From: Oceanobacillus caeni | GTDB taxonomy: Bacteria; Bacillota; Bacilli; Bacillales; Amphibacillaceae | Direction of reading: 5' to 3' | Assembly: GCF_019037185.1 (NCBI RefSeq) | Contig: NZ_JAHHXM010000003.1 | Span: 124,001-188,000 of the forward strand | Length of the DNA: 64,000 nucleotides | Shown here: one piece after another, positions 28,339 to 63,769 of the stretch | Position numbering within the stretch: the stretch's first letter is position 1 | How the letters are laid out: each line of letters starts with the position of its first letter | Position numbers and translations under genes: made by a program | Notes under the pieces: generated by a model | The model's input: only the letters and a program-made list of their open reading frames with translations | The model's database searches: none | What the model was told of the DNA's origin: nothing

Positions 28339-28788
28339 TTAAAGCATATTAATTAATCGATTTTTAATTTCCTCAGACTCTGCTTCTGTCCTACAAATAA
28401 TTAAACATGTATCGTCTCCACAAATGGTACCCATTATTTCGTCCCAATCCAAATTATCAACTAAAACACCAATGGAGTGGGCGTTTCCTGGCAATGTTTT
28501 TAATACAATAAAATGACTTGCAGAATCAATTTTAACGAAAACATCAATAATCATTCTTTTTAATTTTTCAAGTGGGTTATACCTTTGATCTGCAGGAAGG
28601 CTGTAGGCGTATCTCCCGTTACTTGTTGGGACTTTCACGAGTTGCAATTCCTTGATATCTCTAGAAACTGTAGCCTGAGTCACATTAAAATCTAGAGCTT
28701 TTAACCGATCAACTAAATCATCTTGTGTCTCAATTTCATTCTCTGTTATTAATTCTCGAATTTTTAAATGCCGTTGAATTTTACTCAT
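28339..28788 (-). CDS. argR: Arginine repressor ArgR/AhrC
   Basis: A 149-residue transcription regulator. The winged-helix N-terminus has [16 protein letters not shown]. The C-terminal arginine-sensing hexamerisation domain has [30 protein letters not shown]. It represses arginine synthesis and activates catabolism. AAGGAG lies upstream of the ATG. The position between yqxC and recN is conserved in Bacilli. Confidence 0.96.
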
Positions 28789-28820: not shown

Positions 28821-29633
28821 TTACTTTTTATATAGTGCTATATGGGCTTCTTCCACAATTTCTTCAATATTAAGAGAGGATATCTGAGAATTATTTTTCT
28901 TCCAACCTAGATGAGCGAGAAATTCGATATTCCCTTCTCCACCTGTAATTGGAGAAAAAGTTACATTCATTAATTCGTAGCCTTCATTTTGGGCAAATTC
29001 CGTAATGTTCTTGATCACCTCATAATGAACGGATTTATCACGAACAATTCCTTTTGCACCAACCTGCTCTCTTTTGGCCTCAAACTGAGGTTTAATTAAG
29101 GCAACGACATTACTGTTTTCTTCTAATAACCCTTTAAGTACTGGAAGTATTTGTCTAAGTGAAATAAATGACACATCAATGGATGCTAAGTTAGGCTTTC
29201 CTTTATCTAGCATTTCTGACGTAACGTAACGAAAATTTGTCCTCTCCATTACAACCACACGTTTATCATTTCTAATTTTCCAGTCTAATTGGTTATATCC
29301 AACATCTATTGCATAACTTAATAATGCGCCATTTTGTAAAGCACAATCCGTAAAACCGCCAGTTGAAGATCCGATATCAATTAAAATCTTTCCTTCAGCT
29401 GAAATTTGGAAATAAGTTAAAGCCTTTTCTAATTTCAATCCACCACGACTAACATATGGAATTTGTTTTTCTTTAATAAATAAGGGAACATCTTCTTTTA
29501 TCAGCATACCGGGTTTATCGAGACGGTTTGGACCAGAAAAAACTAAACCAGCCATAATGATACGTTTAGCCTTATCCGTGCTTTCCACTAATTGCTTTTC
29601 CACTAATAATTCGTCGAGTCTTTTTTTACCCAT
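28821..29633 (-). CDS. yqxC: TlyA-family rRNA 2'-O-methyltransferase/hemolysin-like protein YqxC
   Basis: A 270-residue protein with an N-terminal S4 RNA-binding domain (KKRLDELLVEKQLVEST) and a FtsJ-type methyltransferase domain. The SAM-binding motif is LIDIGSSTGGFTD, and the catalytic Lys is in VALIKPQFEA. TlyA proteins methylate the 2'-OH of 16S and 23S rRNA cytidines in other bacteria; activity here is inferred. It begins 12 bases after oapA ends, so they share a transcript. Confidence 0.9.
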   Translation of the reverse strand: MGKKRLDELLVEKQLVESTDKAKRIIMAGLVFSGPNRLDKPGMLIKEDVPLFIKEKQIPYVSRGGLKLEKALTYFQISAEGKILIDIGSSTGGFTDCALQNGALLSYAIDVGYNQLDWKIRNDKRVVVMERTNFRYVTSEMLDKGKPNLASIDVSFISLRQILPVLKGLLEENSNVVALIKPQFEAKREQVGAKGIVRDKSVHYEVIKNITEFAQNEGYELMNVTFSPITGGEGNIEFLAHLGWKKNNSQISSLNIEEIVEEAHIALYKK

Positions 29634-29645
29634 TCGTACACCCTT

Positions 29646-30227
29646 TTATCTTTTATTTTTTGGCAATACTTTTATTTTTAATTTATTTTCAATAAAAAAT
29701 ATAATTTTTCCAACTATAAATATAATTTGTGTTGAACCGTTTATTGCCACTGTTTTTCCTAGAGCTTTTCCTCCAACGGTTACGGCAGCAACTAAGCTAG
29801 TTAATAAAGTTGACAAAGCTAATTGGCTAGGTGAACCGTCTGTTTGATTCAGCAAGGAAGCGATTTGTAACACTACTATTGCTGACGCAGTACCACTAAC
29901 AATTCCCGAAATATCACCAATCACATCATTACAAAAGCTTGCAAATCGATCTGCATTTCTTACTAAATAAACAGCTTCTTTAGAACCGGGCACCTTCTCT
30001 GCAGCCATTGCATGAAACGGTCGTTCATCAGCAGCTGTTGCAGCTATACCAAACATATCAAAAATGACACCAATAAGAATAATGATCAAAACGATAAATA
30101 TACCAGTGAACCATGCAACTTCGCTGAGAATAGACGAAGATACAACGGAAAAAATTGCCGCTAACACAAAAGTGATAACGGCAATAGTCAAACTAAATTT
30201 AATTGAACGTTTTATTTGTGATTTCAT
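29646..30227 (-). CDS. oapA: OLE-associated membrane protein OapA
   Basis: A 193-residue integral membrane protein with about four or five hydrophobic segments (near 10-32, 39-60, 100-125, 138-152 and 165-180). Between the second and third lies a conserved-looking cytosolic block, FDMFGIAATAADERPFHAMA. The C-terminus is strongly basic (ENKLKIKVLPKNKR). The pattern and position directly downstream of the OLE RNA identify it as OapA, which binds OLE RNA and takes it to the membrane. GGGG lies six bases before the ATG. The identification rests on recognised context and layout. Confidence 0.88.
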   Translation of the reverse strand: MKSQIKRSIKFSLTIAVITFVLAAIFSVVSSSILSEVAWFTGIFIVLIIILIGVIFDMFGIAATAADERPFHAMAAEKVPGSKEAVYLVRNADRFASFCNDVIGDISGIVSGTASAIVVLQIASLLNQTDGSPSQLALSTLLTSLVAAVTVGGKALGKTVAINGSTQIIFIVGKIIFFIENKLKIKVLPKNKR

Positions 30228-30233
30228 TTCTTT

Positions 30234-30864
30234 CCCCTAATTAAAATATATGTAGCTGGAATGGTCTCTTAAAAGGTTAAGACTACGGCTTAGGTCCAGT
30301 AGGTTTTCCCAAGCAGATACCTCACGTCACCGTGAAAAGGCGGTTCCCCTTTAAATCCACCTTAGCCTTGTCACCAAAAACTAGACTGGATTACCACTTA
30401 GTCCGCACTATAATCCCTTCTAAAAGTCATTCGAACAGTCTAGGAGATTTCCTCTAACAGTCTTTGACCTATCCCTAGTCTCTTTTGCAGTACTGATTTC
30501 ATAGACATTCGTATTAAACCTAGTGGCCACCTAGCTTTAATACGGATTAACCTAATCCCCTCAGTACCACTCAAGACAGGCTACGCTGCACATTAGGTAT
30601 TTATAACCGTGTATTGCAGGTTCATACCCCATTCCATCATCATAACTAGGCTTAGTTATCACAACAGAGATGGGCCTCCGCGGAAATCGGGTCAACGCCC
30701 ACATGCCTTTGTGGATCGCCCAAAATCCTTAACTCCCAGCACCGACCCAAGGCTGGGCGCCTCAAGCCGACACAAGGAACTTCATCGATGTGCCCTTTGG
30801 CGAATTTTTAGGCCCGCCTTCAGAACAGGAGGACTGACTAGAATACTGCACCATCCCAATTATA
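30234..30864 (-). ncRNA. ole: OLE RNA (ornate, large, extremophilic)
   Basis: A roughly 630-nt non-coding stretch, more GC-rich and far more structured than its surroundings, fills the gap between ispA and oapA. That is the known place of OLE RNA, which is about 600 nt and sits beside oapA in the ispA-recN region of extremophilic Gram-positives. Hairpins visible on the minus strand include GCGCCCAGCC/GGTGCTGGG (30759-30730), ATAACTAAGCCTAGTTAT (30661-30644) and GTATTAAAGCTAGG/CTAGGTTTAATAC (30542-30510). There is no coding potential. The 5' end is set by a promoter at 30871-30899; the 3' end just before the oapA RBS is approximate. OLE forms a membrane RNP with OapA and helps tolerance to cold, short alcohols and other stresses. 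Confidence 0.9.
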
Positions 30865-30870
30865 TTTTAT

Positions 30871-30899
30871 ATTATAACAGGAAAGTATCTTTTTTTCTA
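30871..30899 (-). promoter_or_regulatory. Extended -10 promoter for OLE RNA
   Basis: On the minus strand TGTTATAAT (30879-30871) is a perfect extended -10 element. A weak -35 (TAGAAA, 30899-30894) lies 17 bases upstream. The predicted start is near 30864, right where the structured region begins. This would let OLE be transcribed independently of the upstream ispA operon. Confidence 0.7.
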
Positions 30900-30910
30900 T
30901 ATTGATTATC

Positions 30911-31795
30911 TTAGTGATCACGATTGCTAAAGTAATCAGTTAACTCTTTTAATACTGAACTTTTAGCTTCTGCTTTTTCTAGTTCCTGGTATGCTTTTTC
31001 AACATACTCATTCTTTTTATCCATTGCACCATCCAAACCAAGTAATTTTGGATAAGTACTTTTATCATTACCTTCATCACTACCCACAGGCTTGCCAAGT
31101 TTTTCTTGATCACCGGTTACATCTAGTATGTCATCTTGAACTTGAAAAATTAATCCCAAATAATAAGCAAAATGTTTTAAATGTTGTAATTGAGTTTGTG
31201 ACGCACCACCAAGAAATGCGCCAGCATACATCGCAAACTCCAATAACTTTCCAGTTTTTAATGCATGAATATTTTCCAATTCTTCCACAGTTACTTGACG
31301 CGTCTCCGCTTCCATATCTAAGAATTGTCCCGCAACCATTCCTTTTGGGCCACTTGTAGCTGAAAGCATTTTAATTATTTCTACTTTCTGATTATCATTT
31401 AATAAAGAATCCCCGGCAATTAATTCAAAACTATAGGTTAACAAGGCATCTCCAGCTAAAATTGCTGTAGCCTCATCAAATACCTTATGGTTCGTAGGTT
31501 TTCCTCTACGATAGTCATCATCATCCATTGCTGGTAAATCATCGTGTATGAGTGAATAAGTATGTATCATTTCTAATGCAATACATGAACTTATCGCATA
31601 ATTAAAATCATCAGCAAAAGATTCAAAACTAGCTATTAATAAAATCGGTCTTAATCTTTTTCCGCCTGCTTCCACCGAATATAACATAGATTGTTTTAGC
31701 TGTTCGGGGATTGAAAGGTTTTCTATATGATGAACCAATTTTTTATCTACTATCTTTCTGTATCGATTAATATAGTCATTTATTTTTTCTGACAC
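30911..31795 (-). CDS. ispA: Polyprenyl/farnesyl diphosphate synthase
   Basis: A 294-residue trans-prenyltransferase (B. subtilis YqiD). The first Asp-rich motif is HDDLPAMDDDDYRRG and the second is QVQDDILD; GGKRLRP binds diphosphate. It condenses IPP with allylic diphosphates to farnesyl diphosphate. It starts at GTG (31795) behind GGAGGA, overlapping the end of the xseB transcript region by close spacing. The dxs gene that commonly follows ispA in Bacilli is replaced here by OLE RNA and oapA. Confidence 0.94.
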   Translation of the reverse strand: MSEKINDYINRYRKIVDKKLVHHIENLSIPEQLKQSMLYSVEAGGKRLRPILLIASFESFADDFNYAISSCIALEMIHTYSLIHDDLPAMDDDDYRRGKPTNHKVFDEATAILAGDALLTYSFELIAGDSLLNDNQKVEIIKMLSATSGPKGMVAGQFLDMEAETRQVTVEELENIHALKTGKLLEFAMYAGAFLGGASQTQLQHLKHFAYYLGLIFQVQDDILDVTGDQEKLGKPVGSDEGNDKSTYPKLLGLDGAMDKKNEYVEKAYQELEKAEAKSSVLKELTDYFSNRDH

Positions 31796-31797
31796 GC

Positions 31798-32028
31798 TTA
31801 TTCTTCCTCCTGTACTTCAAACAGTTCGAATTCCCCTTGTTCATTCATAATTTGTGTCATTTTCTCCTGGACATTATTTAATTTATCATTACAAATTTTA
31901 GAAAGGTTCATTCCTTCCTGATAATAGGTGATTGCTTTTTCTAAAGGAACATCACCCTCTTCTAGCTTTTGTACAATTTGTTCTAATTTACTCATCGCTT
32001 CTTCAAAAGTAAGTTCTTCTTTACTCAT
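31798..32028 (-). CDS. xseB: Exodeoxyribonuclease VII small subunit
   Basis: A 76-residue helical protein with the family signature [25 protein letters not shown] split over the N-terminal helix and a conserved ALxYYQEGM-type segment ([11 protein letters not shown]). It binds the large subunit XseA, whose gene overlaps it by eight bases, to degrade single-stranded DNA. GGAGG lies before the ATG. Confidence 0.94.
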
Positions 32029-63499: not shown

Positions 63500-63769
63500 T
63501 GTTCAAAAAGCCGAATAAAAAGAACTGAGGTCGGCTAAGATCGTAAAGTCTATTTTTAGTCGACCTTCCTTTAATTCGTTTCCTTCGCATGGTAGCTCGA
63601 AGCGACGATGCTTCCGGTACTGAAACATATGCAGTTAATACATGAGGAACGGACCTGTACAGGATGTGCTGACTTCTACGTTACCCACAGGACGCAGGCG
63701 GCTTTAGGAAGTTCCGCTAGCACGAACGAAAATATTTGAAATATCACTTTTACCGGACCTTTTAAACAT
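63500..63769 (+). repeat. MITE-like repeat R2, copy c (long)
   Basis: A 270-bp copy with ends TGTTCAAAAAGCCG and CGGACCTTTTAAACA. It contains the blocks shared with copy a (GTCGACCTTCCTTTAATTCG, TCGAAGCGACGATGCTTCCG, CATATGCAGTTAATAC) and the block shared with copy b (AGGTCGGCTAA). An extra 80 or so bases (CTGTACAGGATGTGCTGACT onward) are not in copy a. It fills the gap between yqgY and yqgX. Confidence 0.78.

Follow-up and report, generated by a model that had tools for sequence, protein, structure and literature searches.

Intactness of the ole-oapA cassette in Oceanobacillus caeni and an apparent order in the loss of OLE RNA and its partner genes among related genomes

The window analysed here, a 64,000-nucleotide stretch of the Oceanobacillus caeni genome (contig NZ_JAHHXM010000003.1, positions 124,001 to 188,000), carries the gene row accC-asp23-nusB-folD-xseA-xseB-ispA-OLE-oapA-tlyA-argR-recN, all of it on the minus strand. 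The gene asp23 was named by Pfam, and ispA, tlyA and argR by NCBIfam; accC, nusB, folD, xseA, xseB and recN were recognised from their sequences and are presumably these genes. The upstream neighbour of the OLE RNA is ispA, encoding farnesyl diphosphate synthase (30911..31795, minus strand; NF045485, 416 bits). On its other side, oapA (29646..30227, minus strand), the gene of a 193-residue membrane protein partner, adjoins the ole gene (30245..30870, minus strand), with a spacer of 17 bases containing a ribosome-binding-like AGGGGA between them (30228..30244, minus strand). Downstream, a tlyA-family rRNA methyltransferase gene (28821..29633, minus strand; TIGR00478, 288.7 bits) comes directly after oapA (29633-29646) in the window and likewise in Virgibacillus oceani, with no dxs-like gene between; in B. 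subtilis, dxs is located near the corresponding place. It is followed by argR/ahrC (28339..28788, minus strand; NF003281, 266 bits), the product of which is reported as binding OLE RNA (PMC10898510). At the far end of the window, a Bacillaceae-1 RNA (RF01690) was matched at 63656-63721 on the minus strand with 38.2 bits, barely above the cut-off of 35.

A sequence-only reading of this DNA had proposed an OLE RNA in a structured, GC-richer non-coding stretch between ispA and the 193-codon gene. OLE ranks among the largest bacterial RNAs for which no biochemical role is known. The gap between the two genes, both on the minus strand, spans 30228-30910, and an Infernal search with the Rfam model bore out the identity. 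RF01071 matched minus-strand positions 30870-30245 (626 nt) over its full length (model 1-616, not cut off) with 504.4 bits and an E value of 5.3e-145, ten times the gathering cut-off of 50, and this was the sole match in the whole genome. The GC content of the OLE stretch is 45.5% vs 34.3% for the window, a value equalled in 1 of 1268 overlapping windows of the same length. Its folding energy is -212 kcal/mol, whereas 60 shuffles of the same base composition gave -180 ± 6.5 kcal/mol, a z of about -5; the opposite strand gave -157.5. Both the GC enrichment and the structure thus agreed with the proposal.

The structure was further assessed in an alignment of 52 sequences, namely the window copy, five relatives from its genus, 45 of 80 named loci and a decayed copy from the genus member G078. 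Out of 156 pairs mapped from the Rfam structure, 111 showed a change on both sides, a number reached by none of 500 shuffles, and the covariation was 0.386 against 0.167 in the shuffles and at most 0.110 when the structure was slid. Over all 52 rows, 91.2% of the cells were paired, compared with 78.7% in shuffles and at most 45% after sliding. Helices 12-14, which lie in a poorly aligned part, were weak (52-71% paired). The ends of the RNA pair with each other (GGGAUGGU with ACCAUUCC), and compensatory changes were seen there as well. At the loop that our own mapping places as L9.3, the window RNA carries the palindrome GGCC, which has been reported for the kissing loop L9.3 (PMC12286853). The window RNA is a further member of a known RNA kind, and the proposed identification was correct. 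As 2,822 OLE matches in Bacillota are already reported (PMC11332333) and OLE was matched in 111 of the family's 159 genomes, the novelty of this copy is lower than first rated.

The assignment of oapA as the partner gene was also sustained by its position beside OLE and by its sequence. With the window OapA as query, 466 relatives were found in named genomes, and OLE lay upstream in all of the best 80. The multi-pass, basic-tailed character ascribed to the protein agrees with its sequence by eye. Residues 101-105 read DVIGD and so retain a DxxxD pair (101/105), the spacing of which equals that of D100 and D104 in H. halodurans, reported as the residues changed in mutant PM1 (PMC9723947). With the reading frames delimited by us, 77 of the 80 named OapA sequences contain the pattern D-x-I-G-D. 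By sequence, OapA gave no PDB relative and a weak match to the CNNM domain (16.7 bits, below cut-off).

OapB and a candidate for OapC have their genes at other sites of the genome. The OapB gene sits between adk and infA (G000:C5:47435-47770), and its product matches PDB 7k9b, 'OLE-associated protein B', with an E value of 5.7e-31. The OapC/YbxF candidate is an 85-residue protein with an L7Ae match of 54 bits, and its neighbours are genes that we recognise as, presumably, rpoC and rpsL. It was assigned by the L7Ae match together with gene position, its place being all that tells it from the YlxQ paralogue.

Two further observations concern oapA in other genomes of the family. In G109 (G109:C1:2176541-2177108), where OLE scores 508 bits, the adjoining oapA seems to be divided between two frames, which would be either a sequencing error or early decay. 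Moreover, a second OapA-like gene of 197-234 codons occurs in a related genus, g38, in loci L196-L200 (genomes G145, G140, G035, G139 and G143); its product has 42-47% identity to OapA and keeps D-V-V-G-D. Broken relatives of this gene are found in L201 and L202. A T-box leader lies near it in three of the five loci, no OLE match was found beside it in the five of seven loci searched (all but L201 and L202), and none of the three proteins scanned showed a fitting Pfam family.

Within the genus, the surrounding gene row is constant and the cassette is not. The order nusB-folD-xseA-xseB-ispA...tlyA-argR-recN was kept in all 28 genomes (the sequence retrieved from G070 and G073 showed no accC or asp23), while OLE and oapA were both intact in six, both missing in 21, and present as adjoining wrecks in G078. 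The distance from ispA to tlyA was accordingly 1273-1478 bp in the six OLE genomes, 1048 bp in G078 and 14-294 bp in the 21 OLE-less genomes. A blastn search of this slot in the OLE-less sisters G069 and G064/G066/G090 detected no OLE traces. The OLE copy of G078 (in the region L041 5797-6760, with oapA) is 394 nt long and scores 133.8 bits; 88 of its 156 pairs are deleted, 21 of the 68 left are non-standard, and 31 of 158 conserved positions depart. The oapA directly after it matches in pieces only, the longest of which contains five stop codons. By its sequence, G078 appears to be a case in which the RNA and its partner were lost together.

In a tree of six flanking proteins (1995 columns; nine outgroups, all chosen among OLE holders), the six OLE genomes and G078 formed one clade with a support of 93. 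G078 stood beside G065 (97), followed by G069 (84) and then G064/G066/G090 (99), and the remaining members of the genus grouped at 71. Counted by hand, losses alone require four events, one of them under way, a number that depends on the branches with support 93, 84 and 71. An early loss of OLE and oapA at the root of the genus, followed by regain in the window's clade and the loss in G078, requires three. Besides this smaller number of changes, the regain reading draws on the tree of ole-oapA DNA, in which the six genus copies group together (100) and the nearest outsider, Oceanobacillus jordanicus, is joined to them with a support of 43 only. However, a regained cassette would have had to land between ispA and tlyA again, G078 shows loss as it happens, and 104 of the 131 family genomes outside the genus hold the cassette. 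Because of the shared slot and the loss seen in progress, we prefer repeated loss of ole-oapA and consider the single loss with later regain to be unlikely.

As the genus is losing OLE, with 21 of 28 members lacking it and one carrying wrecks, the window copy might itself be a decaying, non-functional remnant, and its 504 bits do fall in the lower part of the range of full-length copies across the family (479-548 bits). The details of the locus speak strongly against decay. The window RNA departs at none of the 236 columns whose conservation in the 50 others reaches 97% or more, standard pairs make up 148 of the 156 mapped on it, oapA is open and 93% identical to its nearest relative, and a promoter-like element is kept (as it also is in the G078 wreck). 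The true wreck in G078 is very different, given its 31 of 158 changed positions and 88 of 156 deleted pairs. A remnant is therefore very improbable. The window copy looks intact, and from this intactness we infer a working OLE system in this genome.

A terminator scan of 29500-31900 found no terminator-like site, so that none was seen between OLE and oapA, the start codon of which is 18 nt past the end of the OLE model. Both facts would suit a riboswitch or another structured leader in the oapA mRNA in place of a separate RNA, but this reading is very improbable, for the class is described as an abundant, membrane-bound and 3'-processed RNA (PMC11332333 and PMC12265935). For a separate OLE RNA, the missing terminator and the nearby start codon lead us to expect that the 3' end is made by cutting, and 3'-end processing of the H. 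halodurans OLE has been reported (PMC11332333).

Just upstream of OLE, a consensus scan marked a candidate ole promoter (30871..30899, minus strand), in which TAGAAA and TATAAT are separated by 17 nt and the latter is preceded by TG. The sequence reads TAGAAA-17-TGTTATAAT, with TATAAT at 30871-30876. As the same scan returned 8 sites where shuffles give 7.5, the match in the window alone means little. TGnTATAAT was found in 46 of 87 OLE upstream regions, whereas 200 base-composition shuffles gave 0.64 on average and never more than 4; these regions (the window, six of the genus and 80 named ones) are related sequences and not independent events. When the best -10-like hexamer of each region was chosen by a score that favoured a preceding TG, this TG was present in 79 of the 87 regions, and in 61 the hexamer began 27-31 bases ahead of the first conserved block of OLE. 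The bases around the element vary among the 30 upstream rows listed, and the decayed OLE of G078 still has a promoter-like element. We read the recurrent extended -10 element as a candidate for ole's own promoter. A literature search, mostly of open-access papers, found no report of an ole promoter or of ole-oapA co-decay, either of which may be in print; for OLE RNA and Oceanobacillus together it found a structure-prediction assessment.

Across the family, OLE matched 111 of 159 genomes and OapA matched 111 of 159, and the two lists, compared by eye, comprised the same genomes. In genus g26, 8 of 11 genomes are without OLE. Because the family search ran Infernal with its stricter filters, at the cost of weak matches, decayed OLE copies like that of G078 could be missed elsewhere. 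Rare, apparently defective ole genes in organisms without OapA are mentioned in PMC11332333. We also scanned viral contigs for one exact 19-base conserved OLE block and obtained no match, a weak test of absence.

Where OLE is missing, oapB is often decayed. An OapB match whose frame stays open for 99 residues or more was present in 108 of 110 intact-OLE genomes vs 20 of 48 OLE-less genomes (Fisher p 5.6e-16, not corrected for kinship), and the two intact-OLE genomes without a match, G111 and G146, are both fragmented assemblies. Among the 48 OLE-less genomes, oapB was whole in 20, gave a shortened match in one (G002), was in broken or short pieces in 15 and gave no match in 12. The oapB site was fetched for the 28 genus members and 20 other genomes, covering all 15 with broken pieces. 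In these 15, oapB was shortened or in several pieces at its usual place before infA. Nine genus members gave no match; seven of them had an unrecognisable stretch of similar length (458-469 bp) between adk and infA, and the other two, G070 and G071, had a faint oapB trace. In L168 and related loci, oapB runs some 10 bases into the start of infA, which may be why decayed oapB was not deleted outright.

Each of the genera g1, g2, g3, g13, g21, g26, g30 and g36 has one or more OLE-less members with a broken oapB or none, so the loss of this gene probably happened several times. For oapB, dN/dS was 0.07-0.28 in six pairs (five of OLE genomes, plus G065-G078, of which G078 is decayed) and 0.16-0.69 in seven OLE-less pairs of the genus. 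The OapB distance relative to the flanking proteins averaged 0.475 in 15 OLE pairs vs 0.783 in 36 OLE-less pairs. With small dS and shared branches, these values would at most lean towards relaxed selection on oapB where OLE is gone. As 28 of the 48 OLE-less genomes have no whole oapB, serving OLE is suggested to be the main task of OapB in many lineages. OapB is kept without OLE in nine of the ten genomes of g36, in nine OLE-less genomes of g1 and in one each of g6 and g30. In g36 the gene looks kept, with a dN/dS of 0.06 in the one pair measured, so there OapB must serve something else, which speaks against a blanket claim that it is an OLE-only protein.

OapC was lost less often than OapB, with matches in 144 of the 159 genomes. 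The 15 genomes without a match include three OLE holders (G017, G029 and G111), all fragmented. In one further OLE holder assembled as a single contig, G117, the OapC match covers residues 1-43 only, in an open frame of 52 residues (G117:C1:145504-145632). There are 13 OLE-less genomes in which oapC is missing (12) or broken (G081), and 12 of these 13 also have no whole oapB; the sole exception to this nesting, G116, is an 80% complete assembly. Conversely, oapC is kept in 16 OLE-less genomes that no longer have a whole oapB. The family thus appears to lose OLE along with OapA first, OapB next and OapC last, an order read from a snapshot of related genomes that are not independent events. Such an order would be expected if OLE and OapA are the core and the other two mainly serve it.

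OLE genomes are reported to have typically 'no more than one' MpfA-type protein (PMC11332333). CNNM/MpfA-type proteins were present in all 28 genus genomes. Counted by hand and leaving out OapA's own weak matches and G078 (which has three), the six OLE genomes had 2, 3, 2, 1, 3 and 2, compared with a mean of 2.5 and a range of 2-4 in the 21 OLE-less genomes. OLE holders of the genus thus reach one to three, which is above the reported figure, and one such protein of the window's genome has the full CNNM-CBS-CorC_HlyC make-up. An anticorrelation between MpfA-type proteins and OLE inside the genus was considered and found unsupported on the 28-genome scale (Mann-Whitney p 0.38). Given one to three of these proteins with OLE and two to four without it, their arrival offers no explanation for the loss of OLE. 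A standing overlap that permits loss would fit better than replacement after loss. We entertain, at somewhat less than even confidence, a fixed dismantling order in which OLE goes together with OapA, OapB decays in most lineages and OapC is last, the loss being made bearable by long-present MpfA-type transporters.

Taken as a whole, we regard it as very probable that the window holds an intact ole-oapA cassette whose RNA would be made from its own promoter, cut at its 3' end and held by OapA in a particle with OapB and OapC that has a role under stress; in the family, this system appears to be lost in order. The window itself contributed the sequence, the structure, the partner genes, the synteny and the recurrent promoter-like element. 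Transcription of OLE would most likely begin at its own promoter just upstream, in addition to read-through, and the RNA would then be cut free at its 3' end. OapA may hold it at the membrane, OapB and OapC may act as its RNA-binding partners, and one OLE RNA may pair with a second copy of itself. The particle would help the cell under cold, alcohol, excess Mg2+ and poor carbon sources. Membrane place, processing, dimer and stress role are carried over from published work on the OLE RNAs of H. halodurans and C. acetobutylicum. According to this work (PMC12286853, PMC12265935 and PMC12054373), OLE forms dimers via contacts between loops, OapA anchors it in the membrane, it binds OapB, OapC and bS21, and H. 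halodurans needs it under cold, ethanol, Mg2+ and carbon stress. As the window RNA keeps the conserved blocks, including GGCC, it is taken to work like the published OLE.

The likeness to the Halalkalibacterium halodurans OLE lies in the full Rfam match, the Rfam pairing, the oapA directly downstream and an encoded OapB and OapC candidate; the window copy differs in being known from sequence alone and is likened through the RF01071 model. With the Clostridium acetobutylicum OLE, seen as a dimer by cryo-EM, it shares the kissing-loop palindrome GGCC under our L9.3 mapping, a likeness at the sequence level. As for the MpfA family of CNNM-CBS-CorC_HlyC transporters, the window OapA resembles the CNNM domain weakly and has neither the CBS nor the CorC_HlyC domain, whereas both are present in the two genus MpfA-type proteins scanned.

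The window copy is one more among thousands, and its interest is in the series of losses around it. If the fixed order is true, OapB would be mainly an OLE protein in this family, and the second OapA-like protein of a related genus, which has no OLE beside it, would mark a stage on the way to a version that needs no RNA. The genus forms a natural knock-out set in which the whole particle, the paired wrecks and successive losses of partners occur within a gene row that is kept. It lets one ask what else changes without OLE and which partners exist for OLE. The comparison of sister species suggests that the OLE machine is dismantled stepwise when a lineage gives OLE up.
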